Below are positions 9,140 through 54,078 of a stretch of 64,000 nt of DNA, piece by piece (the stretch's first letter is position 1; each line of letters begins with the position of its first letter). The notes beneath the pieces were generated by a model. It was given only the letters and a program-made list of their open reading frames with translations. It was not told the origin of the DNA and did no database searches. The position numbers and the translations under genes are program-made. The stretch lies in contig JAIBAG010000010.1 of assembly GCA_019695305.1 (NCBI GenBank), forward strand, positions 1-64,000, read 5' to 3'. Origin of the DNA: a bacterium (GTDB taxonomy: Bacteria; UBA10199; JAIBAG01).

Positions 9140-9170
9140 ACTGGGCATGTTATTTGCATCTCTCTCCAGA

Positions 9171-12100
9171 ATGATGCGGATAAAGATAACATTGGTCCTT
9201 ATAGCTCTACTCATTTCGTCACAATCTATTGCAGCCCCTGTATTAAACACAAACACCAGTTTTTTAATTATCTCCCATCCTCAATTTTTGGACGCAGCCC
9301 AAAAACTGGCTTTGTGGAAAAATCAAAAAGGAATTAACACACAAGTTTTTTCACTCAATCAAACAGGTTCAAGCACCAGCGATATCAAATCGTTTATACA
9401 ATCAAGCGCTCAGTCTAGCAGTATTAAGTATGTTTTACTGATGGGCGATTCGGAATTTATTCCAACTTTCTTTTTAGATAACCCCTGCAATCCGAATATT
9501 CCTGGAGACTGCGAAGAAGAATCGGTTGAAACCGAAGTCTCTGATAGTGTTGTTCAAAAGAAGATTGCTACCGATCACCCCTATTCACGATTAGATAGCG
9601 ATAACACACAAGCTCCACAATTAGCCGTAGGACGAATATCGGTAGACACCTTGGATGAAGCCAACACCGTCGTCGATAAAATTATTGATTACGAAAAAAC
9701 TCCATCATCCGTTACCACTTATTACCAAAACACAACCCTGGCTGGTTACTTTGAAGACAATAATACCAATGGGATCGATTCAAAACCCTACATTAAAATT
9801 TTGGAACAAATTTATACCCTCTTTACCCAAAATAATTATGACGTTACACGCCTCTACACTTATAGCAAAACCCTACACCCCGGCATTATTCTTAAATACG
9901 AAAACGGAACTCCATTGCCCGATTACTTACAGCCCGTATGGGAAAACAATCAAAACATAGGCTTTAACTGGGAGGCTGATAGACAAGACGTAGCCAGTGA
10001 AATAAACGCGGGGCTCTTTTTATACGTATATCGCGATCACGGAGGAGGCTCGGTTTGGAGCGCACAAGATTTTTACAACGTAGACGCCAATAAACTATTA
10101 AACGGCAATGTTGATTCTAACGACAAAGAAGAGGACATGCTGCCTGTTATTTTCAGCTTAGCATGCCTAACCGGACGTTTTGATAACGAATCAAGCTATT
10201 ACAACTTACCCGATAAAGAAAGTTTAGCTGAAACACTTCTACTGAATCCTAAAGGTGGTGCAGCGAGTATTATTGCCAGCAGTCGCTCTAACGCTTCCAG
10301 TATTAACAACTCACTTTTAAACGGGCTTATTGATTATTATTGGGATGACATGAACACATCGATATCTGCCGGCAAAAAGAAATATTTGGGTGATGCCTTG
10401 CTATATGCCAAGCAGAATCTGATCGGGTCGAATAGCGTAAAACTGCGTTCCACGTTTACCTATTATCTGTTGGGAGATCCCACACTAGACATGCTCACAA
10501 GCCGCCCCAGACTTTTTAGAGTCAGTGCATCCATCAATAATAATATACTTACCATTACTCCGGGAGTTGTGGCGCAGAATACTTTTTTAAGCATTACTCA
10601 AAACAGCAAGGTTTTAGCTACAAGCGGCCCGGTTAATATTAATAACAGAGCCCCCTCACTTAGCGTAAGCCTGTCCGACATTGAGACCTCCAAAAATTGG
10701 TCGTTTACATTAACAGCTCCCAATTTTAGACCCTACATTGTAAACGTTAAGGCAGGTGGTCAATATCCCACCGAAAACGAAATTGCTTATTGTCACGATA
10801 ACGGACCTTTTTATACTGATGCAGACGGCGATGGTTTTTATTCAACTGATGGGATAACAACATGTAACCAACCACATGGTAGCGTAAAAAAAACGCCGAC
10901 ACTTCAAACAGGTGATTGTAATGATCAAAACAATCAACTGAATCCCAATCAGCCAGAAATTTGTAACGATCAATTGGATAACAACTGCAACGGCGGCATT
11001 GATGAAGGATGCAATAAGTTTGAAATAACTTATGGCGTACTTAATACTGTATTAGATCAAACTAACGTTATTGGCGCTCGGCACACAATTTCTACCGACA
11101 TTGAGGAGAACGGTACAAACGATTATCTTTCTGGCACAAACTGGGGAATCTCACATCACAACAATAGTGGACTGGACTGGGATTCATTACAATTAGTCGA
11201 TTCCTATTTTAACGGGCTTGACTATGGAAACAATCGTCTTGCCATAACCGACTTAGACAACGATAAATTGCTCGATTTATTTGTAGGCCTCAATCGTTTT
11301 AAGCAAAGCTCATTGGGCACAACAATTTTTGATTACCAAGAAATCCTTAACATAACTGAATTAGAGGGCACTAATGCAGCCATCACCTTTGCTGATATCG
11401 ACAATAATAAATTAATCGATATGATCGTTGGCACAAATGATGGAACCATATATTTTTACGAGCAATCAAACGACGATCCCTTTTATTTTTCTGCAAAAGC
11501 GCCACCTGTAACATACAACTTTAGTGGAGACATTACTCCTGTTATTACCGATGTCGATAACGATGGCTTACTCGATTTATTGTTAGGCTCTGGCCAGGGT
11601 ATATCCCAATATGAGCAAGCATCTCCAAAAAGTTATGAGTGGATTTACATGGGAGAAAATTTTGCAAACTATAAAGCAAATATTAAAACAACACTCAGCA
11701 AAGCCGATTTAAATGATGATGGATCACCTGAGTACCTTGCTGGCTCAGCAGGGCTTATGGGTTTTGAAGTTATTACCTTTTGCGATAAAGCCGACGCCAA
11801 TGCCTGCGGATTATGCGGCGATGTCCCTATCGAAACATGCAATGGCATTGATGATGACTGCGATGGAAATATAGACGACGGTATTACCTGCCCGTATTGT
11901 GGCGATGGAAGTGTGAATCAGGATTTTGAAGAATGTGATGGTACAAGCGGACTTACAAATTCAAACTATACGTGCACAACGAGTTGTACCGAAACCTGTG
12001 CTCCAGGAAAAATTCAAACATCAGCATACCCTCTCGCTTGTGCTACTCCTACATGTGGTGATCGTATTGTAACAGCTCCCGAACAGTGTGAAACAACAAT

Positions 12101-13118
12101 CACACGCTTAGGCTCTAATCAGCTTTGCACATCCTGCCAAATAACCTGCGCCAGCAATTATCATATGGAAGGCAGCACTTGTGTGCGCAATCCCTATTGT
12201 GGCGACAGCGTTATCAATCAAACCAGCGAACAATGCGATGGCACAGCAGGATTAGGACCCAATATGCAATGTAATAATTGCATTAAAAGCTGTGTAAGCG
12301 GCACTAATTTTGTAAATGGAGAGTGCGTAGCACCAACACCAGAACCTACTCCAACTCCCGAACCAACACCGGTAATAACACCAGAACCTACACCGCAACC
12401 AGAGCCAGAGCCTACTCCAACGCCAGAACCGACACCAACGCCCGAGGCTACTCCAACACCGGATCCGGTTCCGTCAGACAACTCAAACCCATCTGACTCG
12501 TCTGACGTGTCCGACTCGTCAGAAGCCCCCACACCCTGCGAAGAGCTAAACATCCAAGCCCAAAATGAGCCCGATAATTTTTACCCCATGCCCTATACAC
12601 CACAAAATTTATCGACTGAAAGTACCTTTGTAATTTACACTTGCGAACTGACAAGTGGCAGCTACTGGACTCTTTTAAGCTCTGTTTTAAATTGTGACAC
12701 TTGTCAAAGTCTCACCATAACATTGCCGTTGCCAGTAGAAGAGCCAAATGAAACACCAATACCTGTAATAGATGAAATTCCAGCACCAGAACAAAATACC
12801 CCCACAGCTGCCCCGGAATCAACAATAGAAGAAACTAACAATCCAACAACAGAAATGAATCCTGACCCAACGCCACTCAGCGAACCATCAGAATTTCATA
12901 ACGAGAAAACCGAAATAGCCATTGAACAACCCATTGAAATAGAACAAACTGGGGTTACCGAAGAAGGTGCAGATAGCACAACCGAATCGCATGACAACAC
13001 ACAACCTCAAACTCCTAACAACACAGATAATCAGGAAGGATCGGATACCGGCAACAACGAAACCACAGACCCCGCCTCTTCCGGCTCTGTTGGGGGGTGT
13101 TCGTTAAGAACGCGCTAA
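9171..13118 (+). CDS. Gingipain-like C25 cysteine peptidase with MopE, cysteine-rich and GGCSL modules
   Basis: An exported protein of about 1315 aa; start chosen at 9171 by comparison with the 2041 leader (ATG 9147 is possible). Signal peptide MMRIKITLVLIALLISSQSIA. The C25 domain (about residues 25-480) shows YVLLMGDSEF, the catalytic His in YRDHGGGS (near 290) and the catalytic Cys in SLACLTGRF (near 332). Then come a MopE-like motif (GDCND...EICND..DNNCNG), FG-GAP-like repeats, a second MopE-like pair and three CGD..EQCD cysteine-rich repeats. A Pro/Thr/Glu linker and a Ser/Thr/Asn-rich tail ending SVGGCSLRTR follow. The GGCSL motif is present but the usual hydrophobic helix after it is absent. 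Secreted protease, probably Arg- or Lys-active by family; specificity not assignable. Confidence 0.85.
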   Translation: MMRIKITLVLIALLISSQSIAAPVLNTNTSFLIISHPQFLDAAQKLALWKNQKGINTQVFSLNQTGSSTSDIKSFIQSSAQSSSIKYVLLMGDSEFIPTFFLDNPCNPNIPGDCEEESVETEVSDSVVQKKIATDHPYSRLDSDNTQAPQLAVGRISVDTLDEANTVVDKIIDYEKTPSSVTTYYQNTTLAGYFEDNNTNGIDSKPYIKILEQIYTLFTQNNYDVTRLYTYSKTLHPGIILKYENGTPLPDYLQPVWENNQNIGFNWEADRQDVASEINAGLFLYVYRDHGGGSVWSAQDFYNVDANKLLNGNVDSNDKEEDMLPVIFSLACLTGRFDNESSYYNLPDKESLAETLLLNPKGGAASIIASSRSNASSINNSLLNGLIDYYWDDMNTSISAGKKKYLGDALLYAKQNLIGSNSVKLRSTFTYYLLGDPTLDMLTSRPRLFRVSASINNNILTITPGVVAQNTFLSITQNSKVLATSGPVNINNRAPSLSVSLSDIETSKNWSFTLTAPNFRPYIVNVKAGGQYPTENEIAYCHDNGPFYTDADGDGFYSTDGITTCNQPHGSVKKTPTLQTGDCNDQNNQLNPNQPEICNDQLDNNCNGGIDEGCNKFEITYGVLNTVLDQTNVIGARHTISTDIEENGTNDYLSGTNWGISHHNNSGLDWDSLQLVDSYFNGLDYGNNRLAITDLDNDKLLDLFVGLNRFKQSSLGTTIFDYQEILNITELEGTNAAITFADIDNNKLIDMIVGTNDGTIYFYEQSNDDPFYFSAKAPPVTYNFSGDITPVITDVDNDGLLDLLLGSGQGISQYEQASPKSYEWIYMGENFANYKANIKTTLSKADLNDDGSPEYLAGSAGLMGFEVITFCDKADANACGLCGDVPIETCNGIDDDCDGNIDDGITCPYCGDGSVNQDFEECDGTSGLTNSNYTCTTSCTETCAPGKIQTSAYPLACATPTCGDRIVTAPEQCETTITRLGSNQLCTSCQITCASNYHMEGSTCVRNPYCGDSVINQTSEQCDGTAGLGPNMQCNNCIKSCVSGTNFVNGECVAPTPEPTPTPEPTPVITPEPTPQPEPEPTPTPEPTPTPEATPTPDPVPSDNSNPSDSSDVSDSSEAPTPCEELNIQAQNEPDNFYPMPYTPQNLSTESTFVIYTCELTSGSYWTLLSSVLNCDTCQSLTITLPLPVEEPNETPIPVIDEIPAPEQNTPTAAPESTIEETNNPTTEMNPDPTPLSEPSEFHNEKTEIAIEQPIEIEQTGVTEEGADSTTESHDNTQPQTPNNTDNQEGSDTGNNETTDPASSGSVGGCSLRTR
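12340..12480 (+). repeat. Pro-Thr-Glu low-complexity linker in the C25 peptidase
   Basis: The DNA repeats variants of ccaacaccagaacct, encoding (PTPEPTPTPEP)n. This is a flexible, wall- or surface-spanning linker between the cysteine-rich repeats and the C-terminal tail. Such tracts expand and contract easily by slipped-strand events. Confidence 0.8.
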
Positions 13119-13120
13119 GT

Positions 13121-13606
13121 ATGAATTATTACCACATAACAATGGGCAGCATTTCTCTTTTGTCTTTTATTGGCGTACTCTATTTTTCGATATTTTCAAA
13201 AAATAGAGATCCTCATCAGGCAACAGATGAGAAAATTTTTTTATTAAGAGACGAAAACTTTGGCCCCAGACGTTCAAAAATAGTTTACTTTAAAGGTAAA
13301 AATATAGGCTTTACACAAAACTGGTCATCAGACCCTGTGGCGTTGGCATATTATACTCTTAAAGGCCATCCCACTGCCAAAAACAGAACCTGGCAATTTA
13401 TTTGTGGCCTTACTTGCGGATTCAGCTTGATTGAATTTCTTAATAAAGATTCTGCAGCCTTAACTCTTTTTATTTATTTCTGCCTCGTGTTTTTTGTTTT
13501 TATTTTTAGTAAAAGCTATTTTAAAGCCTGGAAGCACATCAAGAACGGCACCCTGCCTCCCATGGATGAGAGAGATAAAAATAGTTATATATCTGATGAA
13601 TCATGA
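13121..13606 (+). CDS. Small membrane protein of unknown function
   Basis: 161 aa from ATG 13121, two bases after the TAA of the C25 peptidase (TAAGTATG), so probably translationally coupled. An N-terminal helix (SISLLSFIGVLYFSIF then SKNR) is followed by a soluble basic segment and two further hydrophobic helices (FICGLTCGFSLIEFL and LFIYFCLVFFVFIF). The open frame runs back over the peptidase's end, so a one-base shift near 13106-13118 would fuse GGCSL to this first helix. The long extra domain makes separate genes the simpler reading. No family recognised. Confidence 0.65.
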   Translation: MNYYHITMGSISLLSFIGVLYFSIFSKNRDPHQATDEKIFLLRDENFGPRRSKIVYFKGKNIGFTQNWSSDPVALAYYTLKGHPTAKNRTWQFICGLTCGFSLIEFLNKDSAALTLFIYFCLVFFVFIFSKSYFKAWKHIKNGTLPPMDERDKNSYISDES

Positions 13607-13639: not shown

Positions 13640-14173
13640 ATGAAAACAACCGATGCAAAAATTAAATTCCGCTATTTTATTTTGTTTATGCTCAACCTTT
13701 TATTTTTAACATTGCCATCAGGTTGCAGTGGTATATCCACTGGCTTTCCTCTTATTTTTTCAACAAACACTTCATTAATACTCGTAGACTTTCTTTTTTG
13801 CTCAGGATTTTTGGCAGCCCTCTATTTTTATTTTAAAAGGCAAAATTTTTTAATGGATCGCTTGAAGTATCAAGCTTTGCTCTTAGTATTTTTCTTATTC
13901 ATCATTCAAAATATTTACACCATTATCCGTTACAATATAGCAGGGCTGGATATCATATCTGTTGATTGTTTTATTATTTACATGCCCGCTCTTTTTTTAA
14001 TGATGGGACTACAATCACTAATTCACTCAAAATGGCTCGATTCTTTTATAAATAATCACAATGATATAGTTTCAACATGCAGCGTTGTTATCCAACTTGT
14101 TCTTTATTATTATGCTTTTTACGGAATTATTGTTTTATATCGACATATTAAGAATAAGAAACTTGCTTCTTAA
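13640..14173 (+). CDS. Polytopic membrane protein of unknown function
   Basis: 177 aa, starting MKTTDAKIKFRYFILFML. Four or five hydrophobic segments follow (LNLLFLTLPSGC, LVDFLFCSGFLAALYFYF, ALLLVFFLFIIQNIYTII, CFIIYMPALFLMMGL, VVIQLVLYYYAFYGIIVLY) and the C-terminus is basic (RHIKNKK). No motif identifies a family. It lies 33 bases after the preceding small membrane gene and was probably co-transcribed with it and the C25 peptidase, so it may help export or anchor that protein; this is guilt by position only. Confidence 0.65.
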   Translation: MKTTDAKIKFRYFILFMLNLLFLTLPSGCSGISTGFPLIFSTNTSLILVDFLFCSGFLAALYFYFKRQNFLMDRLKYQALLLVFFLFIIQNIYTIIRYNIAGLDIISVDCFIIYMPALFLMMGLQSLIHSKWLDSFINNHNDIVSTCSVVIQLVLYYYAFYGIIVLYRHIKNKKLAS

Positions 14174-15033: not shown

Positions 15034-16425
15034 ATGCAACATAAATTTGTCCTTTTTCTTGCCTTCTTCTCTTTAGTGAGTACAACAGGCGCTTATGCTG
15101 ATGATACTGGCTTTTTTACGGCTCAAAATTTAAGCGACCAATTTCAAAACCGGATTAGCGTTGGAAATGCTCATAGCTGTTTTATTAAAGATGATGGTGT
15201 TGCCAGTTGCTGGGGCAAAAATGATTTTATGTCTTTAGGCGACTCTTCCTATACACAAAGTTATTCTGCACGCCCCCGCCTTGTTCCACTTTACGACAAT
15301 AGCGAATCTTATGTTTCAATAACAGCCGGTTTTTCTCACACGTGCGCAGTCACTTCTAACGGCCACGGACGCTGCTGGGGATATGATGCCTATGGCAATA
15401 ACGGCAATGGTTTTAAAAACACTCTCTATAACGGCAAAAAATTTATTAACGCCGATACCGCCAAACCAGTTGTTTATTCATTTGAAAATAATGGCATCAC
15501 ACAAAACATAGAATTAACCGATATTTTACAACTTGGAGCAGGTAAAAATCACAACTGCGCAGTATTACACAATGGCGCTGTAGAATGTTGGGGCAATGCC
15601 AGCAATTGGGAACTTGGCAACAATGATAGTGGTACTAATAAAAATTATGCTGTTGCCGTTTTAGGTTATCATGGTCCCGGTGTTAATCTGCCCAATCCCG
15701 AATGTGCCAATACATGTAATCAAAGCTGCGTTATGCCCAATTATATGGGGCTCATGGTTGCCGGGACCAACATGAATACCTGCCTTGTTCGTTTGGATAA
15801 TAAAATAGAATGTTGGGGAACAGAATCAAGCGATGCTCCTGTGAATGGCAACGATACCTATAGTGACGCTGTTCATTATCCTCAATCCCGTTTTGTACTT
15901 GATAGCATAACAAAAACACCCCTTGAAAAAGCTTTTTACGTAGCCGCCAGCAGTTTTCACGTATGTTCCGTAGTAGACGATGATATCCCTGGCGATAATG
16001 TTGGTTCTGTTTATTGCTGGGGCACTAACGACAATAGCCAGCTAGGAGACAACACAAAAACCGATCAAATCATGGCCGTAAAAGTAGCCGGCATCAGTAA
16101 TGCCACCATGGTGGATTGCGGAGAAAAATTTAGCTGTGCTGTTACCACCGATGGAGAAGTTAAATGTTGGGGCTCGCAAATTGTTGGCCGTATGGGAAAT
16201 GGCGTTTCAAGCGAAGCCGTGCAGTTTGTACCCTCCGCAGTAAAAACAGATGCTCAAACAAATTTATCAAATGCAGTTGAGGTTTCATTGGGTTTTGCCC
16301 ATGCCTGCGCCTACACCAATAATAATGGCGTAAGTGATGTTTATTGCTGGGGCCAAAATACCAGCGGTCAATTAGGTAACGGCTCAACGGCTAATTCGTT
16401 GTACGCCAAGAAAGTAGCTTTTTAA
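15034..16425 (+). CDS. Exported seven-repeat RCC1-type beta-propeller protein
   Basis: 463 aa with signal peptide MQHKFVLFLAFFSLVSTTGAYA. Seven repeats each carry a Cys and a CWG: HSCFIKDDGVASCWG, HTCAVTSNGHGRCWG, HNCAVLHNGAVECWG, NTCLVRLDNKIECWG, HVCSVV...VYCWG, FSCAVTTDGEVKCWG and HACAYT...VYCWG. RCC1 repeats form a seven-bladed propeller, and the paired Cys in each blade fit disulfides in an exported protein. There is no anchor or GGCSL tail, so it is probably released or periplasmic. Bacterial members are mostly of unknown role, presumably protein or glycan binding. A strong terminator follows. Confidence 0.88.
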   Translation: MQHKFVLFLAFFSLVSTTGAYADDTGFFTAQNLSDQFQNRISVGNAHSCFIKDDGVASCWGKNDFMSLGDSSYTQSYSARPRLVPLYDNSESYVSITAGFSHTCAVTSNGHGRCWGYDAYGNNGNGFKNTLYNGKKFINADTAKPVVYSFENNGITQNIELTDILQLGAGKNHNCAVLHNGAVECWGNASNWELGNNDSGTNKNYAVAVLGYHGPGVNLPNPECANTCNQSCVMPNYMGLMVAGTNMNTCLVRLDNKIECWGTESSDAPVNGNDTYSDAVHYPQSRFVLDSITKTPLEKAFYVAASSFHVCSVVDDDIPGDNVGSVYCWGTNDNSQLGDNTKTDQIMAVKVAGISNATMVDCGEKFSCAVTTDGEVKCWGSQIVGRMGNGVSSEAVQFVPSAVKTDAQTNLSNAVEVSLGFAHACAYTNNNGVSDVYCWGQNTSGQLGNGSTANSLYAKKVAF

Positions 16426-18022: not shown

Positions 18023-20044
18023 ATGAAATTATGTACTCGTTTATGTACCCTCTTCCTTTTATCCTTTACATTTGTGACCACAGCTTTTGCGGATGAGGTG
18101 GGAACCAACGATTTTCGCATCAGCGATATGGGCACAAATGGTGTTGCTGGCATTACAGCCATGGCCCCCTCTATTGCTTATAATTCTACAGACAATGAAT
18201 ACATTGTCATTTGGGTAGGCGATGATAACACAGCCCCTTTAGTTGTAGGTGAGCATGAAGTATTTGGCCAACGCTTAGACGGTAACGGAAACGAAATTGG
18301 AAGTGATTTTCGTATTAGCGATATGGGGCCAAATGGTGATGTTGATTATGATGTACAAGGCGGGACACAAAAAAATCAACCCACAATAGTCTATAATTCA
18401 ACCGATAACGAATACTTAGTTGTATGGAATGGCGAGGACAATACCGGAAGCCTTATTGATGGAGAACCAGAAATTTTTGGACAACGCTTAGATGCGGACG
18501 GCAATGAAATTGGCACTAACGATTTTAAAATAAGTACTATGGGTCCCGATGGTGATGGCAACTATTTTGCTTCTAGTGGGGCACATGCAAGCTATAATTC
18601 AACCAATAACGAATATTTAGTTGTATGGACCGGTGAAGATGATACGGCCCCTCTTGTGAATAACGAAGTTGAAGTATTTGGACAGCGCCTAGACACCGAT
18701 GGTAATGAAATTGGCACCAACGATTTTCGCATTAGCGACATGGGTACAAACGGAACCACAAATCACGCCCCATTTGGAGATCCTCGCGTGACTTATAATA
18801 ACACCGATAATGAGTACCTGGTTGTATGGTCAGGAGACGACAATACCGGAGCATTGGTCCAGGAAGCCTATGAAATATTTGGCCAACGCTTAGATACCGA
18901 TGGCAATGAGATTGGCACCAATGATTTTCGGATTAGTGATATGGGCGAGCTGGATACAGATACAGCCTTTCAGGCTTTTTATCCTAATGTTACCTACAAT
19001 CAAACGGATAATGAATATCTCGTTGTATGGTATGGAGATGACGAGCGCGACGACGTAACTGATGACGAGTATGAAATTTACGGTCAACTGCTAGATGCCG
19101 ATGGTAATGAAATTGGTGATAATGACTTTAAAATTAGTGATGTAGGTCCCGATAGCTCTAATAACTATTTAGCACTTAGTCCCAATGCTTACTTTAACAG
19201 TTTAGATGATGAATATCTTGTTACCTGGGCAGCCGAAGATAATAACGGCGGCATGGTTGATGAGGAATATGAAATATTTGGCCAACGTTTAAATACCAAC
19301 GGTGACGAAATAGGAGATAATGATTTCCGTATAAGTGATATGGGTCCCGACGGAGATGCTAATTATGATGCAACATATACACAATCTATTGCATTCAATA
19401 TTACGCTCAATCAATACTTAGTAGTATGGAGCGGAGACGATAATACGGGAACATTAGTTGACGGTGAAATTGAAATATTTGGCCAAAGTCTTAATTTCCC
19501 TAATTGTGGCAATGGCGTTTTAGAAACTGATGAAAGCTGCGATGACGGCAATGATGACAATACCGATACTTGTTTAAACACTTGTGAAACAGCAAGCTGC
19601 GGTGACGGCTTTACACAAACAGGGGCTGAAGAGTGCGATGACGGCAATGACGACAATACCGATACTTGTTTGAACACTTGTGTAGCAGCAAGCTGCGGTG
19701 ATGGGTTTATACAAACAGGCGTTGAAGAATGCGACAATGCGGGGGCTAATAGCGACACTATGGCAAACGCTTGCCGTACCACTTGTATAGAGGCATCCTG
19801 CGGCGACGATATCATCGACACCGGAGAAGAATGCGATGATGGCAATGCAACTAATGATGATGGCTGCGATAGTGTTTGCGCTACCGAAGATGCAGATAGT
19901 GGAGATGATAGTACCGGCAGTTCTTCAGCAGGCGGGTGTTCGCTAGAACAAAACTCATCACCCCCTTCATTAAATACTATCATGTTGGTGATACTAGTTA
20001 TGGGAGCACTGCACCTTGCTACAAAACGCAAAGCTTTTAAATAG
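18023..20044 (+). CDS. Surface beta-propeller protein with cysteine-rich repeats and GGCSL tail
   Basis: 673 aa; ATG 18023 follows AGGAGCCCCA. Signal peptide MKLCTRLCTLFLLSFTFVTTAFA. Seven repeats of about 70 residues follow, each with NEIG.NDF.ISDMG, YN.TDNEYLVVW and E(I/V)FGQRL, as in a seven-bladed propeller. After them come four Myxococcus-type cysteine-rich repeats (CGNG...CDDGN and CGDG...ECDDGN). The end is SSSAGGCSL, a spacer, the hydrophobic helix NTIMLVILVMGALHLA and TKRKAFK, a MYXO-CTERM-like sorting and anchoring tail. Probably a surface-displayed binding protein. It is a paralogue of the 52082-54078 gene; the ligand is unknown. Confidence 0.9.
   Translation: MKLCTRLCTLFLLSFTFVTTAFADEVGTNDFRISDMGTNGVAGITAMAPSIAYNSTDNEYIVIWVGDDNTAPLVVGEHEVFGQRLDGNGNEIGSDFRISDMGPNGDVDYDVQGGTQKNQPTIVYNSTDNEYLVVWNGEDNTGSLIDGEPEIFGQRLDADGNEIGTNDFKISTMGPDGDGNYFASSGAHASYNSTNNEYLVVWTGEDDTAPLVNNEVEVFGQRLDTDGNEIGTNDFRISDMGTNGTTNHAPFGDPRVTYNNTDNEYLVVWSGDDNTGALVQEAYEIFGQRLDTDGNEIGTNDFRISDMGELDTDTAFQAFYPNVTYNQTDNEYLVVWYGDDERDDVTDDEYEIYGQLLDADGNEIGDNDFKISDVGPDSSNNYLALSPNAYFNSLDDEYLVTWAAEDNNGGMVDEEYEIFGQRLNTNGDEIGDNDFRISDMGPDGDANYDATYTQSIAFNITLNQYLVVWSGDDNTGTLVDGEIEIFGQSLNFPNCGNGVLETDESCDDGNDDNTDTCLNTCETASCGDGFTQTGAEECDDGNDDNTDTCLNTCVAASCGDGFIQTGVEECDNAGANSDTMANACRTTCIEASCGDDIIDTGEECDDGNATNDDGCDSVCATEDADSGDDSTGSSSAGGCSLEQNSSPPSLNTIMLVILVMGALHLATKRKAFK
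19538..19729 (+). repeat. Two tandem 96-base repeats encoding cysteine-rich modules
   Basis: Units 19538-19633 and 19634-19729 are nearly identical, each encoding CDDGNDDNTDTCLNTC, then .ASCGDGF.QTG.EE. The third copy has diverged. High DNA identity points to recent duplication by unequal exchange. Confidence 0.85.
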
Positions 20045-20049
20045 AGTGA

Positions 20050-21900
20050 TTAAGGATTAGCTACAGTTGTTGTAATATAAAACGTAGAACTATACGCGGT
20101 ATTTCCACCCGCTGTAATTTTACCACGGAATAAAACCGTATCGGACGCTAAACAATTGGCACTAAACGTATTCGCATCCGAAAACACATCGTTACTCAGC
20201 ACAATTGTATTCCCATCAGGAGTACCGCAACCCATTTCGTGCGGGGTATCAAAATCCAAATTATTATCGTCGGCCGAACATTCGATGCAAATTTCGGTCA
20301 CGTTATCGGGCAAGTTTTCAAAGCTAACTGAAAAGTTGGCATCCACGGCCACATCTACATCCAAACCCTCCCATGCATCGTAACTGGCCTCGGCCTGACG
20401 ATCGAGCTCGAAACCTTCGTATTCAACATTTTCGGCTCGGGGCAATAAATAATTAGCTACCGATGTAAACGCCACCTGATAAGTATCGGATACAGGATAC
20501 AAAGAATAAAAACCGGCATCATCAGGACTAAAAACATTATTGGTACCCAGCGATAAATAATTAACATCGTAGCTATCATCAGACGGGATAGGAATAAAAC
20601 CCAGCACGTTATCTTCGGCCGAACTATCGCCTAAATCTACCTCGGCTATAATATGCGTTTCTTCGTCGTCGATAGTAAAATCTACAACATCGTATTCACC
20701 GGTAATAAGAACGTGATCTTCAAAGGGCGCCTGGCCTTCTATGGAACACAGCCCCACAAAACTTGAACCGCTGGGAATACACTGGTAAAAATATTCACCG
20801 TGGCTGGCCACATAAATCATTTTAGCGTTATCGGCTAAATCGTTTGTACTTAAACCCAAAAATGCCGCCATGGTGTTTGAAATAACACTATTAGGGTCGG
20901 AAATATCCACCTGAAACGCTTCAGTATTGCCGTTAGAAAGCTGAGCCACTACAAACAAAACTGTGTTATTAAGCCAATCAATTTTTACACTCTCTACATT
21001 GGCCGAAGCCCCTAAATCGGCTTCAAATTGATCTTCGGTTTCAAGATCAACAATCAACAAATTTTGATTAACAGGATTAAAAGGATCTTCAAAAACGGAA
21101 GTAGCTAAAAGACTGCTATCCGGGCTGATGGCCATGGAACGGTTACTGGGCAAAACAGTGCCTGTATCAATTATGGCCACGTTGCCATCCCCATCTACCA
21201 ACACAATTTCATTTTCATCCTCATCAAAACCACTAATAAAATTTTGCCCCGGAACCGAAGTAAGATCGTAAAGGAGACTATCCAGTTCTATGGGCGACTC
21301 ACTAAAAAGCCCGTTGGAATTAATAGACGTAATAACAGGATTTCCATCGGCATTTGTTGCCGATAAATAAATGCCGTCCGCCCCTTCTACCAAACCATTA
21401 GGCTGTATGGAAAAAGCGCGGGTCGTATCCGTCATGCTGGCACTTGAATTTGTTAAAAACACCGCAAAAGTGCGACGCCCCAGCAAAGGGTTAACAGGAC
21501 CCACTTTAAAATAAACAGGTTCGGCAATCACATCGCAGCCCGAAACGCATACGCTCACCGCTACAGGTTTGCTTTCAATTTCCTGAGGCAAGGTGATGGT
21601 AAAATTACCCGTAACACTAAACTGCTGTTTTACTTCGCCATCATAAATAACAACTAACTCTTGCGTTGTGGTTTCATCAACCGCTGTGCCGCTTACCTCA
21701 CCAATATTATCGACTGTTTCGGTATCGGTACCGGCAAAAGCCAGCGACGTAGGATCGACACTGGATACTCCTTTAGCAATAGGAAGCGGGATATCAATGG
21801 GAGCGCCTTCAAGTGAGGTAAGGCCTGACGATGTACCGGTAGCCCCGCCACAGGCACCTAAGGAAAGAAAGATGGCAACTAAATATATTTTGCGAATCAT
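20050..21900 (-). CDS. Large lipoprotein, CGGATG...EGAP.DIP family, copy 2
   Basis: 616 aa, MIRKIYLVAIFLSLGACGG with a clean lipobox (LGAC). After the Cys it reads GGATGTSSGLTSLEGAPID, then IPLPIAKG, the same pattern as the 140-2041 lipoprotein, and both share the long body with matching segments (NSSASMTDTTRAF). Its ATG overlaps the stop of the giant GGCSL gene by four bases (ATGA), so it is translationally coupled and probably a partner of that surface protein. Function unknown. It converges on the 18023 gene with five bases between them. Confidence 0.88.
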   Translation of the reverse strand: MIRKIYLVAIFLSLGACGGATGTSSGLTSLEGAPIDIPLPIAKGVSSVDPTSLAFAGTDTETVDNIGEVSGTAVDETTTQELVVIYDGEVKQQFSVTGNFTITLPQEIESKPVAVSVCVSGCDVIAEPVYFKVGPVNPLLGRRTFAVFLTNSSASMTDTTRAFSIQPNGLVEGADGIYLSATNADGNPVITSINSNGLFSESPIELDSLLYDLTSVPGQNFISGFDEDENEIVLVDGDGNVAIIDTGTVLPSNRSMAISPDSSLLATSVFEDPFNPVNQNLLIVDLETEDQFEADLGASANVESVKIDWLNNTVLFVVAQLSNGNTEAFQVDISDPNSVISNTMAAFLGLSTNDLADNAKMIYVASHGEYFYQCIPSGSSFVGLCSIEGQAPFEDHVLITGEYDVVDFTIDDEETHIIAEVDLGDSSAEDNVLGFIPIPSDDSYDVNYLSLGTNNVFSPDDAGFYSLYPVSDTYQVAFTSVANYLLPRAENVEYEGFELDRQAEASYDAWEGLDVDVAVDANFSVSFENLPDNVTEICIECSADDNNLDFDTPHEMGCGTPDGNTIVLSNDVFSDANTFSANCLASDTVLFRGKITAGGNTAYSSTFYITTTVANP

Positions 21901-24900
21901 GCGTATTTTCTTTTAAAAAAGACTACAAACAATAATATTAAATACCATGATCCCCAAGAGAAGGAAACTTGTGAATTAAGCGAACATCCGCCACCGCCCT
22001 GAACATTATTATACAAGCTATTACCACCACCACTCTCTATTTGCCCCTGGCCATTAGCCGCACGAGAGATACTAAATACTAAAGTAGAAGTCTGCCCACC
22101 CTCTTCATCCGTCATTAAAATATCCAAAATACCATCGCCATCCACATCGGCCAGAGATAAACCACTAGCTCCTAACAGGCTCGACGAAGATGCCGCGTTA
22201 ATACTGGTAAAACTTCCTGAAGAGGGATCGCTAATATCAATAACTGCCGACACATTGGGACCCCCAAAAATAATATAAATGGCACCACCATTGTTACTGC
22301 CGCCCATCGGGATAGCAATTACAACATCTTCGTAACCATCACCATTCACATCCCCCACACGGGTATGATAGGCAAAAAGACCATCGCAAAATACTCCATC
22401 TACCCGCACATCAGCATCATCGGCTGTTTTATCTTCTAAACTTTCGGCACCATAAAACACATACACATGGCAACCATCCATGCTGGATACCACTAAATCG
22501 TTTAAGTGATCGCCGTTAAAATCGCCAATATCACTCGAAAAATATTGGATGGAATTCGTAATGTTTGCATCGGCATTATCATCTAAATCAATATTGTCAT
22601 CCCAATCATCAGCACCCTCAATGGCACGCACTTCTGCTTGCGATGGAATATCAACATCCAGCACAAGCCCTCTCATAATACTGGCACCAAGGCTCGCTTC
22701 CAATTCATTGGAATAATCTTCGGTATATTTACCACCCACATAAAACTCGGAATCGGTATCGCCGTTGGTATCTTCGGCTTCCATGAAAATATTTTCGGTT
22801 AACGGAACATTCTCACCTTCGGTTACAAGAGACACAAAACTTGCCAGGTCTTGAGTGTAAACCGAAATAATACGCATGCCAGGCGCATGAATGGCTATTT
22901 TATCGTCAAATAAAAGTATATGAGTACCAAAATAACTATTCTCACTTTGCCCTTCAAGAGTGGTAACACCACTCGGTAAATTCCAAGCATAAACCTTACC
23001 ACTTAAAGTGCCATTGGGAATTCTATACACAATACCCTTGTTGTTATTGGCTGTAGGATCGGCAATAAAAACGGCATCGTCCGAAGTCTGATAAACAAGA
23101 GTTTCGCTTGTTAAGCCATAAAAAACGAAGTCATCAAAATCGATAGTATAAACACTGCCGCGCCCTGATACAGTTTTTACTTGTTCGGCAATTAAACTGC
23201 CACTGGATGTTACCTGGCCTGCTTTAATATTGCTATAGCGAGTAACACTATCATCACTTGTTGAAACACTCGATTTAACAACATCTACCACGTACGAATC
23301 GTTAGCACTCCTTGTAGTGCTCGATACCGTTAAATGAACAACAACCTGCCCGTTTGAATCGTTAAAACTAACAGTAGCTGTAGAAGCTGACGGGCTAGAC
23401 AGAAGTGTACCTTGCCCTCTTACACTCCATTCATATGTAGAAGCATTGAGAACGCTCGCCGTATACGATTGAGTTGTACCACCTGCAGCAATTGCGGGGC
23501 CTGTAATACTGACTTCGGGGCGGCCCGTCTCTTCATCATCACCTTCATCGCCCTCATCGGCATCATCTCCCTCGTCATCATTATCACTTATAGCGGCAAC
23601 CACGGTAGGAGCAGCCAAACCATTGTAACTTAAATCGAGGCTTGTTACTAAATGCGATAACGTCACATGATGATCACCTTCGTAAACAGAATCATCCACA
23701 GCCTCTACCGTTACTGTTTGAGGCGTACTCCAATTATTGCGTGTAAAACTTAAGGTAGTAGGCGAAACACAGGCCTGGGCATCATCCACCAAAACCGTTA
23801 CATTCACGGTTGCCGAGGGACGCGCTGTGAGAACCACCAAATAAGTATCAGTCGTTCCATCTTCATCGATAACAGTTTCGGCATCCGATTCAAAAATACT
23901 TACAGATTTGGTTTCGTTATCGGAGATATTCACTATAAGACTACCAACACTAATTCCATTGTAATTGGTATCGGAGCTTGAAGCTGTATGGGTAATTGTG
24001 GATGATGCCGACCCTTCGGTAACCTCATCATCAACAGCTGTTACCGTCACACTTTGCGGGGTATCCCAGTTTCCGGAAGTAAAAGTGAGAGCTGAATCCG
24101 AAAGTGTTACTTGTGCATCATGCGTAAGAGTAACAGTAACGTTGTTTGTTGGCTCGGTAGAAAGTACAACCGTGTACGTATCGGTAGCACCACCTTCGGC
24201 CACAACCGTATTGCCGCTTGTATGAGCCACCGTCACACCCGCGGTATCGTTATCTACAATAGGATTTACAGTAATATTGGAAATAGTAATCCCATCATAA
24301 GTTCCATCACCGCTCGTAGCCGTATGTGTAATAGTTCCTGAGTGAGATCCTTCCATCACATCGTCATCAATAGCCGTAATGGTAACCGTTTGCGGTGTAC
24401 TGTAATTAGCAGATGTAAAGATGAGGGACGAAGGCGAAGGCGTTAATTGCGATCCTCCCGACAGGTTAATTGTCACATCACTGGTGGGCTCGGTATTAAG
24501 AGCAATAGTATACGTATCGGTAACACCACCTTCGGTAACACTGCTCGATCCACCTGATTGGGTTAAGGTAACTCCCGCCGTATCATTATCGGTATTGCTC
24601 ACGGTTAAATCGGCCACACTTAAATTATTGTAAAAGCTATCGGCCGATGAAGCATTGGCATTGTTTACATAATAAGTGATATTTCCATCTGCAATAGCAT
24701 CATTCACACCCGTGATGGTTACCGTTTGTGGTACGTTCCAGTTTCCGGATGTAAACGTAAGAGACGATGGAGATACGGTTCCTTCGGTTGTATCACTAGA
24801 AGACACCCCTATTGTCACATCGGCTGTGGGTTCCGAATTAAGTACTACGGTATAAGTATCGGTACCACCGGCTTCGGTAGTGGTAGCCGTATTTTTACTT

Positions 24901-27449
24901 ACTGTTGTGCCTGCTGTGTCATTATCATTGATGGTAGTGGTTTGCTGTTGCGTACCCGATTCGGTAGCATTATTCACAGTAGTAATATCTACAATCAAAG
25001 TTTCATCGTTTTCATCAATAGAATCGTTGATGGCTGTTGCCGTAAAAGATCCGGTAGTAGAACCCGCCGTAATGGTAACAATAAGACCCGACACAGTGTA
25101 ATCGGTACCAACACCCCCTGTAGTTCCACTATAAGAAAAGTTAACCGTCACATCTTTTCCGGATGCAGCCGATAATGTTGCCGTAAAGGTGGCAGCGCCT
25201 CCCGCTTCTGAAATGCTGGAATTATCAAGGCCAAGAGTGACAGTAGGAGCGGCATCATCATCCGTAATGGTTACCGTTTGCTGCTGCGTACCACTCTCCG
25301 TACCATAGGTAACGCTAGCAATATCAACAATAACTGTTTCATTTTCTTCATCGGTAGTATCACCAGCGGCAGATATTGTAGCCGTGCCTGTTGTATCACC
25401 AGCAGGAATCGTAATGGTTGTAGAAGAAAGAGTATAATCGGTTCCCGATCCAGTGGCTGTACCACTCACACTTAAAGTTACAACCACATCCAAATTATTG
25501 GTGCCTGAGAGAGTTGCTGTAATATCCTGAGTACCACCAGTTTCGGAAATGCTGGCACCACCCGATAACGTTACCGAAGGGTTGGTATTATGACAGGTGG
25601 TAGTAAGGGTATAAGCGCTGCTGAATTGTGATGTGCCATTGGTGGCATCGGTAGCGGTAGCAACCAGTTTATTGCCAGCTAATTTATAACTGTTGTCTGT
25701 AATGGTATATGTCCATGCGCCGCCACCATCTGTTGTGGTTTCACCAATATAGGTTTGCCCTTCCTGATTATCGCTATCGGCATCAAAAACTTGCACCGTT
25801 GAATTAGCTGTAGCCGTACCAGTAAGAACCGTATCGGTTCCCGAACAAGAGTCGCCCGAAAAAACAGGAACCGGATTAAGAGCTTGTAAATCGGTATACA
25901 ATGAAAGAGCAAGGCCGCTTGTGCTTCCGTTATTATAAATAGAATTTCTTAATACTTTTGTTCCGGTACTATTGGCATCTTCAACGGTAATACCGCTGTA
26001 AAACGAGCCCCCGTTATTGGCAATAATATTGGCTTTACCGGATGTTGTTCCACCAATGGTTGTTCCTGTTGCTGTGTTCCAAATATAAATACCTTCACGG
26101 GAATTTCCGCATGAACCTCCACCAGCTTTAATACCAATTCTGTTTCCCGCAATAGTTGTATTATCGCCGCCCCAGATATTAATACCAATAGACGACATGT
26201 TACAGATGACGTTTGCTTCTAGGACATCGCCGTCATCAGTACCAATACGTGTGCCCGAACCCACAACACCAACACCGTAGTTACCAGTTAATACGCTTGT
26301 ACCATCAGCACCTATACCAATAGAGTTACCCGCAATAACGGCATTGTTGGCACCCGCATAAATCATGTCGTAGCTTACCGAGCCAGCGATGATATTTTTT
26401 TCATTGGCATCAGCCGTTCCATTGCCATCGGTACCAATACGCACGCCATTTCCGCCCGATGCAATATAAATGGCAAACATATCATTTTGCAAAACAGCGT
26501 TACCGGTAAGCGTTGTACCAATATAGTTACCGGCAATAACCGAGTTATCGCCGTTGGAACCTACAGAGATACCCTCTTGAGCACTTCCTGAAATAAGGTT
26601 TCCTTCATAAGCATCATAAGTTCCATCGCCATCGGTACCAATCATGGCACTTGGTGCCGCAACATTAATATTTTCGTAAGTATTGCCAAGATCGGTATCG
26701 CCATCTTTATCGGTTCCAAAAAAATTTCCGGCCACAGTTACAGCAGTACTCGACTCAATATGCAAACCCGCAACACTATTCCCCGCAATAATATTTCTTT
26801 CTCCGGCATCATTCGAGCCATCACCATCGGTACCAATAACACTGTTGGCACCCGACGATGGCATATAAATACCGGTTCCACTATTACCCAAAGCCGTATC
26901 GCCATCGGTATCAACACCAATATAGTTACCTTGAATTTTAACATTTGCAGCTGTTCCACTAATTTCAATACCATCGCTTCCAAAACGTACAATGCTTAAA
27001 CCCATGACAGTAACATTACTGCCAGAAATGGTAAGACCGTTAGCACCAGCCCCGCTACCAGCACTGATACCATCTAACTTAATTAAAATTGTTGAATTGA
27101 TAGCATTGGGAAAATCGTTTGTGCCAGCACTAGCACCCGATTGCGAATAACCATTAATGGTAATTGTACTTCCCGAAATGGTAGGCAGTGCCGAAGTGGG
27201 GGTAATGGTACACACACCACCGCATCCCGAGATATTAAAATCAATGGTATCGTTACCATCACCATTAGCAGCCGTAATAGCTTCTCTGAGCGAACAGTCG
27301 GCATCGCAAGTACCATCGTTGGTATCGGCGGTTTTGCTAACAGTGTAGGTGGTGGCAAACGATACAAGCGGAAATAATAGGAAAAGAAAAAAAAGCCCCC
27401 CTTTTAAGGCCTTTATGCCAGCTCTTCTATATGCTTTGTGCTGCATCAT
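21897..27449 (-). CDS. Giant CSLREA / beta-helix / Calx-beta / FG-GAP surface protein with GGCSL tail
   Basis: About 1850 aa; start at tandem ATG 27449/27446 rather than the upstream TTG 27488. Order: signal peptide (GGLFFLFLLFPLVSFA); CSLREA domain (CDADCSLREAITAAN); right-handed beta-helix with repeated IGTDGDG..DA.E.NIIAG units; a Big-like domain; two Calx-beta domains and four related repeats (GG.TDTYTVVL...PTTDVT type); an acidic linker (DDEGDDADEGDEGDD); a PKD-like domain; FG-GAP repeats (DFNGD..NDLV, DVNGDGYEDVV, DVDGDGILD); finally GGGCSL, NSQVSFSWGSWYLILLFVVFF and KRKYA. The make-up is that of a large adhesin that binds calcium and glycans. Its stop overlaps the coupled lipoprotein start. 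Confidence 0.88.
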   Translation of the reverse strand: MMQHKAYRRAGIKALKGGLFFLFLLFPLVSFATTYTVSKTADTNDGTCDADCSLREAITAANGDGNDTIDFNISGCGGVCTITPTSALPTISGSTITINGYSQSGASAGTNDFPNAINSTILIKLDGISAGSGAGANGLTISGSNVTVMGLSIVRFGSDGIEISGTAANVKIQGNYIGVDTDGDTALGNSGTGIYMPSSGANSVIGTDGDGSNDAGERNIIAGNSVAGLHIESSTAVTVAGNFFGTDKDGDTDLGNTYENINVAAPSAMIGTDGDGTYDAYEGNLISGSAQEGISVGSNGDNSVIAGNYIGTTLTGNAVLQNDMFAIYIASGGNGVRIGTDGNGTADANEKNIIAGSVSYDMIYAGANNAVIAGNSIGIGADGTSVLTGNYGVGVVGSGTRIGTDDGDVLEANVICNMSSIGINIWGGDNTTIAGNRIGIKAGGGSCGNSREGIYIWNTATGTTIGGTTSGKANIIANNGGSFYSGITVEDANSTGTKVLRNSIYNNGSTSGLALSLYTDLQALNPVPVFSGDSCSGTDTVLTGTATANSTVQVFDADSDNQEGQTYIGETTTDGGGAWTYTITDNSYKLAGNKLVATATDATNGTSQFSSAYTLTTTCHNTNPSVTLSGGASISETGGTQDITATLSGTNNLDVVVTLSVSGTATGSGTDYTLSSTTITIPAGDTTGTATISAAGDTTDEENETVIVDIASVTYGTESGTQQQTVTITDDDAAPTVTLGLDNSSISEAGGAATFTATLSAASGKDVTVNFSYSGTTGGVGTDYTVSGLIVTITAGSTTGSFTATAINDSIDENDETLIVDITTVNNATESGTQQQTTTINDNDTAGTTVSKNTATTTEAGGTDTYTVVLNSEPTADVTIGVSSSDTTEGTVSPSSLTFTSGNWNVPQTVTITGVNDAIADGNITYYVNNANASSADSFYNNLSVADLTVSNTDNDTAGVTLTQSGGSSSVTEGGVTDTYTIALNTEPTSDVTINLSGGSQLTPSPSSLIFTSANYSTPQTVTITAIDDDVMEGSHSGTITHTATSGDGTYDGITISNITVNPIVDNDTAGVTVAHTSGNTVVAEGGATDTYTVVLSTEPTNNVTVTLTHDAQVTLSDSALTFTSGNWDTPQSVTVTAVDDEVTEGSASSTITHTASSSDTNYNGISVGSLIVNISDNETKSVSIFESDAETVIDEDGTTDTYLVVLTARPSATVNVTVLVDDAQACVSPTTLSFTRNNWSTPQTVTVEAVDDSVYEGDHHVTLSHLVTSLDLSYNGLAAPTVVAAISDNDDEGDDADEGDEGDDEETGRPEVSITGPAIAAGGTTQSYTASVLNASTYEWSVRGQGTLLSSPSASTATVSFNDSNGQVVVHLTVSSTTRSANDSYVVDVVKSSVSTSDDSVTRYSNIKAGQVTSSGSLIAEQVKTVSGRGSVYTIDFDDFVFYGLTSETLVYQTSDDAVFIADPTANNNKGIVYRIPNGTLSGKVYAWNLPSGVTTLEGQSENSYFGTHILLFDDKIAIHAPGMRIISVYTQDLASFVSLVTEGENVPLTENIFMEAEDTNGDTDSEFYVGGKYTEDYSNELEASLGASIMRGLVLDVDIPSQAEVRAIEGADDWDDNIDLDDNADANITNSIQYFSSDIGDFNGDHLNDLVVSSMDGCHVYVFYGAESLEDKTADDADVRVDGVFCDGLFAYHTRVGDVNGDGYEDVVIAIPMGGSNNGGAIYIIFGGPNVSAVIDISDPSSGSFTSINAASSSSLLGASGLSLADVDGDGILDILMTDEEGGQTSTLVFSISRAANGQGQIESGGGNSLYNNVQGGGGCSLNSQVSFSWGSWYLILLFVVFFKRKYA

Positions 27450-27503
27450 ATATATGATACAGGAGCAAAAGTGGAGCCATACCGACAAAAAAACTGTCTA
27501 CTT

Positions 27504-51538: not shown

Positions 51539-52096
51539 ATGTCGAAAGCTTTTACCAAAGAAGACGACAAGCAAGATGATGATAGCGGCGACATCAATGC
51601 GCCTCCTATCCCTAAAGGCTCAAAGAATTACATCACACCTCAAGGTTTTAAAAAATTAAAGGATGAATTGCACGACCTCTTAACAGTGAAGCGCCCCGAA
51701 TTAACGGCCATCATAAACTGGGCCGCTAGTAATGGCGATAGAAGTGAAAATGCCGATTATATTTACGGCAAAAGACGCTTAAGAGAAGTGGATAAAAGAA
51801 TTCGTTTTTTGGAAAAACGGATTGAAGCGGCGGAAGTGACAGATCCCACACAGAATAAATCAACCAAAGTATTTTTTGGAGCCACCGTGACAATTGAAGA
51901 CGAAAACGGTGAACAAAAAACTTATTCCATTGTAGGTATTGACGAAACGGATTTTAAAAAAAACAGGATCAGCTGGATATCCCCCATGGCCACTTCCCTA
52001 TTAACCAGGGAAGTGGGCCATTTAGTGAGTGTTAAAACTCCGGGAGGAATAAAAGAGTACGAAATTATCTCGATAACCTACCTACCCCTTGATTGA
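51539..52096 (+). CDS. greB: GreB transcription elongation factor
   Basis: 185 aa. Gre coiled-coil: YITPQGFKKLKDELHDLL, WAASNGDRSENADYIYGKRRLREVDKRIRFLEKRI with the acidic tip GDRSENAD, then the globular domain (FFGATVTIEDENGEQKTYSIVGIDETD, GHLVSVKTPGGIKEYEII). The YIYGKRRLR-type tip motif points to GreB rather than GreA. The factor cleaves backtracked transcripts in RNA polymerase. It follows the regulator by four bases and its last codons overlap the convergent 52082 gene by 15 bases. Confidence 0.93.
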   Translation: MSKAFTKEDDKQDDDSGDINAPPIPKGSKNYITPQGFKKLKDELHDLLTVKRPELTAIINWAASNGDRSENADYIYGKRRLREVDKRIRFLEKRIEAAEVTDPTQNKSTKVFFGATVTIEDENGEQKTYSIVGIDETDFKKNRISWISPMATSLLTREVGHLVSVKTPGGIKEYEIISITYLPLD

Positions 52097-54078
52097 TTTC
52101 CTTGCTGCCACCAGAATTCCGGCCAAAACAAACACCATCATCAGTGATGACATCAAATTCGTTTGGGACGCATTTAAGCTGCAACCACCTCCACCACTAC
52201 CAGCATTACCGATGGTCCCCGAATCAGCCTCTAAAGTGCAAGTACTGCTGCAATCATCACCGTCGGTGGTATTACCATCATCACATTCCTCGCTATCGGC
52301 TTTGGTACCATCACCACAAACAACGGCAGGGGCTACTTCTTCAATACACAACGCACTACAACCATCACCATCGCTAGTATTACCATCATCACATTCCTCG
52401 CTATCGGCTTTGGTACCATCACCACAAACAGCGGCAGGGGCTACTTCTTCAATACACAACGCACTACAACCATCACCATTGGTAGCATTGCTATCATCAC
52501 ATTCTTCGGTGCCGGCAAGCACACCATCTCCGCAAATAGGTTCATCCACTGCGCACACGCTACTACAACCATCGTTATTGATGAGATTACCATCATCACA
52601 AACTTCGGTGCTGGATTGATCGATCACACCGTTGCCGCAAACAGGAAAGTTTAAAAGCTGGCCGAAGATTTCAAACTCGTTATTAGCAAGAGGAGCTACA
52701 TCATCATCACCACGCCAAACCGTCACGTACGTATTATTTTCCGGTAAATATCCAGCTACAGGCCAATTCCCCATATACAATGCAGAACCATACCCACCCA
52801 TATCCGATACGGCAAAGTTGTTATCAATTTTGGTTCCGTTGGCCGCCATTCTTTGGGCAAATATTTCTATTTCGTCTGCTGTCGTGCTATAGGGCGCTTG
52901 CCGTGTAGCTCCATACCAAACCACCAGATATTCATTGGCAATAGAATTATAAACAATCGAGGGATGATGTGCCGAAGCATCGGTGTTGTCATCCCTACCA
53001 CTGTTACTGATTCTCACATCATCCATCATGGTTCTATTTCCATTCACATCCAAGATTTGTCCAAAGACTTCAAGTTTACCATTTCCAACATCGTCATCTT
53101 CTCCGTACCAAACTACAAAAAATTGTTGATTGACGGGATTAAAAGCAACAACCGGGTATTTCGCACCATAAGCTCGATTATTACCCGGACCCATTTGGCT
53201 AATTTGAAAATCGTTATTGCCGGTTTGCACACCGCTTGCCGTTAAAAACTGACCATAGGCTTGATAGTCGATTTGATTAGCTGGAATGCCGTCGGCATGA
53301 GCCGCATCATCCGCCCAAACAACCAGGTACCGATTATTAATGGAATCATATTCAATAGAAGGACCAAAAGCGTTATTCCCACGGACATTACTAATCTGAA
53401 AATCATTATCGCCAATTTCTCCAGCTACGGCATTTAAACGCTGAGCAAAAATATGTGTTTGAGCATTTGCCGTCAGTCTTGCTGTCCACACAACCAAAAA
53501 TTCATTTTCGACAGAATTATAAGCTACAGATATCGTCGACTCATATAATTCAACATTTCGCCCCACTTCTTTCATGCTACTTATTTTTAAACGTGACCCT
53601 ACCAAAGAACCGTCAATTCCAACAAGTTGGGCATAAACCTCGAATTCTTCATCAACTAAAGAGCCTGTGTTATCATCCGAAACCCACACCACCAAAAATT
53701 GCTTGGTAGTGGTATTATAGGATACGGCCACTGCCTCTGGTCTGTAAGGTGAAGAAGCATTGGGCCCCATGCTGCTGATACGAAAATCGCTCACTACTGT
53801 GGCCCCGGTACCATCCAAAATATGTCCAAACACTTCATGTTCGTCATTGATACCAGTACCTTCCCCCACCCATGCAACCAAACATTTCGTTTCATAAGGT
53901 GCACATACAACCTCAGGCTGCGGAGTTGAAACAGTTAAATTTATATTTCCTTCCCCCCCCCCATCTGGCTAATCCTAAAATCATTAGCCCCAATCTCACC
54001 CGCAACGGCTTGGGTTAAAAAGATAAGATTCATTAAAACCGACAAAAAAACCGATAAAAACTGAATTCCCTTTTTCAT
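52082..54078 (-). CDS. Surface beta-propeller protein with GGCSL tail, out of frame at a 10-G tract
   Basis: Two open stretches read as one gene: 54078-53941 (MKKGIQFLSVFLSVLMNLIFL then TQAVAGEIGANDFRISQMGGG, starting after TTGGAGTGATTTT) and 53880-52082 in another frame. They are separated at a run of ten G (10 C on the plus strand, 53953-53962). Eleven or eight G would join them into one ~665-aa protein whose first blade (QMGGG...LVAWVGEGTGINDEHEVF) fits the paralogue at 18023. It then has seven EVFG-type repeats, four or more cysteine-rich repeats (CGDG.EE CDDGN) and GGGGCSLNASQTN, hydrophobic helix and RKSIKG. As sequenced it would make only a short peptide. A phase-variable surface protein or a sequencing error at the tract. 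Confidence 0.85.
52271..52486 (-). repeat. Two tandem 108-base repeats encoding cysteine-rich modules
   Basis: Units 52271-52378 and 52379-52486 are almost identical and encode CDDGNTSDGDGCSALCIEE and VCGDGTKADSEE. A third more diverged unit follows. Recent duplication by unequal exchange, matching the 96-base repeats in the paralogue at 19538. Confidence 0.85.
53953..53962 (-). repeat. Homopolymeric tract of ten G (minus strand)
   Basis: Ten consecutive C on the plus strand sit inside the coding region of the GGCSL propeller gene, at the exact point where the reading frame breaks. Such tracts change length by slipped-strand pairing and are the usual on/off switches of phase-variable surface genes. 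A read error at this homopolymer is the main alternative. Confidence 0.9.

Follow-up and report, generated by a model that had tools for sequence, protein, structure and literature searches.

A C25 peptidase gene ending in a short, helix-less Gly-Gly-Cys tail, and the recurrence of such ends in its order and class

The stretch of DNA analysed here, referred to below as the window, comprises 64,000 nucleotides of contig JAIBAG010000010.1. Its features that bear upon this work are as follows.

Positions 9147 to 13118, forward strand: C25 (gingipain-type) peptidase of 1323 aa, based upon profile search and translation.
Positions 13092 to 13118, forward strand: short helix-less tail of this peptidase, GGCSLRTR (13092-13115), and its stop codon TAA (13116-13118).
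Positions 13121 to 13606, forward strand: separate open reading frame (ORF) of 161 aa, which in translation starts MNYYHITMGSISLLSFIGVLYFSIFSKNR and contains an N-terminal hydrophobic stretch and two more.
Positions 13640 to 14173, forward strand: second small hydrophobic ORF, of 177 aa, with no family above the cut-off in a Pfam/NCBIfam search.
Positions 18023 to 20044, forward strand: DUF4215/myxo_disulf_rpt protein with the long tail GGCSLEQNSSPPSLNTIMLVILVMGALHLATKRKAFK, based upon a profile match and reading of the tail.
Positions 21897 to 27488, reverse strand: ORF of 1863 aa with the long tail GGCSLNSQVSFSWGSWYLILLFVVFFKRKYA, from its translation.
Positions 52082 to 53881, reverse strand: ORF of 599 aa with the long tail GGCSLNASQTNLMSSLMMVFVLAGILVAARKSIKG, from its translation.

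The gene at 9147–13118 encodes a member of the C25 family, its match to PF01364 scoring 215.3 bits against a cut-off of 23. The protein is made up of a putative signal peptide, the C25 domain, a MopE copper-binding motif, FG-GAP, a linker that is rich in Cys and in P/E/T, and the short GGC tail. The MopE-like and FG-GAP matches, both C-terminal to the catalytic domain, were obtained by profile search, and the N-terminus, MLFASLSRMMRIKITLVLIALLISSQSIAA, resembles a signal peptide when examined by eye; no strict lipobox was found within the first 45 residues. The protein terminates in ...DPASSGSVGGCSLRTR, with GGC encoded at 13092–13100, and an invariant-Cys motif near the C-terminus is therefore present. 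This Cys is followed by only five residues and the stop codon, and the transmembrane helix of a MYXO-CTERM-type signal is absent. No hydrophobic stretch was found at the end of the peptidase, and the terminal RTR, with its two Arg, is too short to be called a basic cluster. The NCBIfam CTERM models yielded no family up to an E value of 10 for this tail, nor did they for two further short tails that were tried. The TAA codon is separated by two bases from the ATG at 13121, and the two reading frames differ. The coordinates and translations thus bear out an earlier note on this DNA, according to which the peptidase ends SVGGCSLRTR with no membrane helix and the next gene, hydrophobic at its start, begins two bases later in another frame.

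No other C25 gene was found in the same genome (G000) or in 8 genomes of the order, and a GTDB scan revealed no close relative of the whole protein. The matches of this protein in 60 relatives were mainly to its MopE-like, Cys-rich or low-complexity parts; the C25 domain was matched weakly in a few cases, in genomes that are less closely related. As C25 orthologues are lacking in the order, the endings of other GGC tails were examined instead. In the peptidase's own genome, the DNA pattern for GGC[S..]L is present at 39 places, as compared with 16 for a reversed control pattern. By reading, 12 of these places were assigned to the terminus of a long ORF, nine of them with a helix and three, viz. 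GGCSLRTR, GGCSLNANN and GGCSLRPER, without one. The full tail, consisting of GGCSL, a polar spacer, a helix and a basic end, is carried by three proteins in the window. The 150 nt that follow the GGCSLNANN and GGCSLRPER ends showed no helix in any of the frames; an ORF that looks kinase-like by eye lies directly after the first, and stop-rich sequence after the second. Two other proteins were noted. One (L067; G000:C33:1570-1725, minus strand) has a long GGCSL tail with about 40 extra residues beyond the basic end, and the other, at 15034–16425 of the window, is an exported-looking protein with repeated CWGxNxxGxLG-like units and no NCBIfam match, which we take to be RCC1-like.

Neither Pfam nor NCBIfam has a family that matches the ORF at 13121–13606, and a search of 60 genomes revealed no relative of it besides itself. 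It was earlier suggested that a one-base shift would provide the peptidase with a full tail. Such a shift does yield GGCSL followed by a helix and basic residues, but the product then has some 130 residues more, including two additional hydrophobic stretches; as the sampled long tails have 28–58 residues after the Cys, this is not a full tail, and the doubt that the same note expressed about a simple error, based upon the extra domain of the second protein, was sound. The possibility that an indel, real or introduced in assembly, severed the tail, the helix of 13121–13606 having formerly been part of the peptidase, could draw upon this one-base linkage and upon the run of six G at 13092–13097. 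However, alteration of this run would lose the Cys, the joined product is overlong as noted above, and there are further helix-less ends that no helix follows. Further, a hydrophobic 15-mer starting within 150 nt downstream, in any frame, is found for nine of 36 short tails and also for 40 of 89 control ORF ends. An indel is thus not supported as the origin of this end and is highly improbable. Because hydrophobic stretches are common after any ORF, the presence of a helix beside the peptidase is a coincidence, and it needs only a small membrane-protein gene next door as its explanation. For a programmed frameshift or stop read-through leading to a longer, helix-bearing form, which the note had also considered as a shift in decoding, only the closeness of the two frames can be cited; a downstream hydrophobic stretch in frame is present in just 3 of the 36 short tails, all three stop codons are used among these tails and most of them lack a downstream helix in any frame, so that this option is the least credible of all and can practically be discounted.

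A helix supplied in trans by the next gene was also considered and rejected, since the kinase-like gene after GGCSLNANN has no helix at its start and no open frame follows GGCSLRPER. Within the order, a next gene with an N-terminal hydrophobic stretch follows three short tails (L052, L078 and L253), which is not above the control. In two cases (L253, 2890-2960, and L174, after 2871), the gene directly after the short-tailed gene starts like a lipoprotein signal peptide; such starts are no commoner than the control for hydrophobic stretches.

Helix-less GGC ends were identified for 11 proteins of the order, distributed in five of its 8 genomes (three each in G000 and G002, two each in G003 and G006, and one in G004), this set being based upon two profile searches, reading of their loci and a search for the choice-of-anchor-Q family. 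The exact end GCSLVR, followed by the stop codon, is shared by three different proteins from genomes of two families, and six of the 11 proteins are choice-of-anchor-Q members (NF041518). This family, whose members are found without use of the tail, was employed to sample C-termini in the class. A search of 46 class genomes with NF041518 gave matches in at least 36, and 153 places, 26 in the order and 127 elsewhere in the class (among the matches listed), were traced to the C-terminus; of these 9 ran off the stretch, G003:C41 ends in masked bases, and two second stretches of already traced ORFs were left out of the class places. Among the matches listed there were 137 distinct C-termini, consisting of 33 short GGC tails, about 80 long tails and 19 that were neither; a script had called 38 ends short, from which five (four of the form C-D-I/L-G-A-x-E... 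and one CAANCLSD) were removed by eye. Short choice-of-anchor-Q tails occurred in 17 of the 31 genomes traced, again among the matches listed. Examples from the class include GGCSLIR, GGCSLVR, GGCTLLVR, GAGCSLIIRK, GGCSLIVR, GGCSLMVR, GGCQLILR and SGSCTLIR. A strict N-terminal lipobox was present in none of the nine short-tailed proteins checked, and hence no other lipid anchor is evident in them. A tail of a different kind was seen in G006 (L154; G006:C1, around 6592, minus strand), where GGCSL with helix and basic residues is internal to an ORF and about 500 residues follow; in this it is like MXAN_5598, for which the accessible part of PMC11980579 describes an internal MYXO-CTERM.

To compare the two kinds of ends, a set of 115 tails was used, comprising 37 short, 75 long and 3 other tails; it retains one doubtful row among the short tails (L350) and one chance opposite-strand row among the long (L052), and its counts ignore kinship. 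The Cys is followed by 4–10 residues in all 37 short tails and by 28–58 in the long, and by 20 and 36 in two of the three others. An aliphatic residue at +3 is present in 26 of 37 short tails, as compared with 7 of 75 long tails, in which this residue is mostly polar (Fisher p = 7e-11, kinship ignored), and an Arg or Lys at +3 to +6 in 30 of 37 as against 15 of 75 (p = 6e-10, kinship ignored). The short class has no helix and usually terminates in C-S-L-[IVLM]-R. An accidentally shortened tail would not show these properties. The 37 short tails terminate in TAA (21), TGA (12) or TAG (4) and their codons vary synonymously, which indicates that the peptide has been kept and that these are not copies of one DNA end. 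The tail of the C25 peptidase has Arg at +3 instead of Ile or Val, a feature that it shares with GGCSLRRF, GGCSLRP, GGCSLRPER and GGCTLRSL; other off-consensus short tails in its order are NANN, HPS, QNVYLRD and QIYGPKRM. Judged by its sequence, it is a member of the short class that lies outside the core consensus. The remaining option of the earlier note, that the gene truly ends at GGCSL, is in this manner supported by two further such ends in the genome, by their recurrence in the order and class and by a consensus of their own. The peptidase gene almost certainly ends at GGCSLRTR; the downstream helix is part of another gene, and the end is one of the recurring helix-less Gly-Gly-Cys tails.

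The best explanation overall is probably that this true, helix-less gene end belongs to a recurring class and may act as a compact lipid-anchor signal. The chief rival to a lipid anchor is that the short-tailed proteins are not anchored and are exported to the medium by the type II system, GGCSL being the remnant of a long tail whose helix has been lost, or having a minor role. For this one may cite the off-consensus nature of several short tails in the peptidase's own order and the plausibility of a peptidase as a free enzyme, and also TraA of Myxococcus xanthus, which when expressed without its whole MYXO-CTERM is secreted and released to the medium (PMC11980579, accessible part). However, remnants should keep a polar residue at +3 and end anywhere, yet the aliphatic +3 residue (26/37) and the length of 4–10 residues (37/37) depart from both expectations, and the short-tail pattern spans many genomes with synonymous codon change. 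Release is thus rather unlikely, but of the alternatives for the function of the tail it deserves most attention.

With regard to enzymes that could act upon a lipid-anchor signal, the peptidase's own genome encodes two Rce1-like proteins, one of which (G000:C2:64647-64952) is of the myxosortase family. It scores 117.9 bits with NF040914 (Mrt_core; cut-off 100) and has the EExxxR, His and Asn motifs of the family, in the conserved forms PEEFFFR, SHS and CN(V/L)F, but it is below the cut-off of every named equivalog (MrtP, 149.5 vs 250). Its gene is adjoined by those for an Lgt paralogue and LspA. The paralogue matches PF01790 with 163.8 bits (cut-off 24.9), and it retains the Arg of RxGC and the R-x3-E pair, as do the housekeeping copies and Escherichia coli Lgt. 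Of the 8 genomes of the order, seven have a myxosortase over the cut-off, and an Lgt is located within about 1 kb of it in all seven. A separate Lgt is found elsewhere in each of these seven genomes and scores higher in six of them (in G006 it is only partly matched, where a contig ends), whereas G001, without an over-cut-off myxosortase, has a single Lgt. Six of the seven have the gene order ileS-lspA-lgt-mrt, and in G005 it is lspA-lgt-mrt. On the minus strand of G000:C2 the cluster was seen as ileS-lspA-lgt2-myxosortase (L133, 5630-10451), and it is kept in the order. Additionally, a third, divergent Lgt-like protein (L132; G000:C18:14226-14888; 82.8 bits) was noted, which is in no other genome of the order. 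GspE and GspF are both over the cut-off in the peptidase's own genome.

The GTDB scan revealed 55 loci with a relative of the protease. The cluster is present in 8 of these, four of them outside the order, including JACPFF010000006.1, which is identical to G027 over 10,543 bases. As the other 47, mostly from other phyla, have no Lgt in the stretch examined, the adjacency is a feature of this lineage. However, ileS and lspA lie side by side in many bacteria, with lgt close to them, and this weakens what can be inferred from the adjacency. Nine class genomes outside the order show short choice-of-anchor-Q tails only (among the matches listed), and the one of these that was checked, G027, has a myxosortase; all three of its sampled choice-of-anchor-Q tails are helix-less (among the matches listed), and the cluster is present. 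For the acyl-transferase step of the myxosortase pathway, the Lgt paralogue of the cluster is a candidate. These results also bear upon the suggestion that the short-tail Cys serves some other machine, such as a different acyl- or prenyl-transferase, a disulfide or thioester linkage to an envelope component, or recognition by a secretion system. The short tails have a clear consensus, and the difference at +3 between the two classes could mean a different enzyme, but the GGC[STQ]L core that is common to both suggests the same one, and the short-only genome checked has the myxosortase cluster; this suggestion is therefore unlikely.

In the model for M. xanthus, the Cys is lipidated, a CPBP protease cleaves and the type II system exports the protein; the acyl-transferase of this pathway has not yet been named, and Lgt is the leading candidate (PMC11980579, accessible part). 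By analogy, it is a fair conjecture, held with less than even confidence, that the short-tail Cys is lipidated and trimmed by the Lgt paralogue and the myxosortase. In such a pathway, the C25 protein would be exported by Sec by means of its N-terminal signal peptide, its C-terminal Cys would be diacylated by the Lgt paralogue encoded beside the myxosortase, and the latter, a CPBP family protein related to Rce1, would then cut off the residues after the Cys, as Rce1 does on a CaaX box. Transport to the cell surface would be by the type II system, and there the lipid would retain the protein. The same two enzymes may act upon both forms of the tail, removing a helix from the long and a few residues from the short. 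The helix of the long tail would then be a dispensable means of presenting the Cys, for which a terminal C-S-L-[IV]-R could be a compact substitute, the aliphatic-plus-Arg end perhaps bringing the helix-less C-terminus to the membrane enzyme. Against such a compact anchor, the Cys in known CPBP sorting substrates is held at the membrane by a helix. We tentatively propose, as a bolder and somewhat less secure step, that this class may possess an extracytoplasmic CaaX-like box, GGC[ST]L[IV]R, consisting of a 4–10 residue tail with no helix; a dedicated Lgt paralogue would diacylate its Cys, and trimming of the tail by the adjacent myxosortase would give rise to C-terminal lipoproteins, of which the C25 peptidase would be one.

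Among known systems, the MYXO-CTERM/myxosortase pair (MrtX of M. xanthus; TIGR03901, NF040593 and NF040914) is similar in that an invariant Cys follows a Gly/Ser-rich linker in exported proteins, and also in that a CPBP protease and type II secretion genes are present in the genome, whose own long tails are tripartite. In contrast, the short tail has no helix, exhibits the consensus C-S-L-[IVLM]-R at the very end and gives no match to TIGR03901; since the helix is absent, it is not a MYXO-CTERM. Further, the protease here adjoins an Lgt paralogue and LspA, whereas the accessible part of PMC11980579 reports no such neighbour for the M. xanthus myxosortase. The model closest to the long tails of the peptidase's own genome is JDVT-CTERM/MrtJ (NF033191, NF033192), but the best score with NF033191 among five tails tried, 23.4 bits, is below its cut-off of 27, the short tails give no match, and there is no two-gene pair of target and protease here. 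The CaaX box with Rce1, of eukaryotes and archaea, shows likeness in having a Cys near the very C-terminus, small or aliphatic residues after it and an Rce1-like protease. However, it has exactly three residues after the Cys, compared with 4–10 in the 37 short tails, and it undergoes cytosolic prenylation, whereas the proteins here are exported and no prenyltransferase is implicated. The GlyGly-CTERM/rhombosortase system resembles the present one in its C-terminal Gly-rich signal and in surface retention after type II secretion (PMC11980579, accessible part), but differs from it since here the Cys is invariant, the protease is of the CPBP and not the rhomboid type, and the short form is helix-less. 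A membrane helix is present in every C-terminal sorting signal of this kind on which the accessible part of PMC11980579 reports, and a literature search, mostly at the level of listings, found no description of a helix-less C-terminal Cys sorting signal.

If a helix-less form is conserved, such proteins would have to be detected in another way, as models based upon the helix miss helix-less tails, and the view of which part of the signal is read by the enzyme would also change. Because a second Lgt is conserved alongside the myxosortase, the question of which enzyme lipidates the Cys becomes directly testable.
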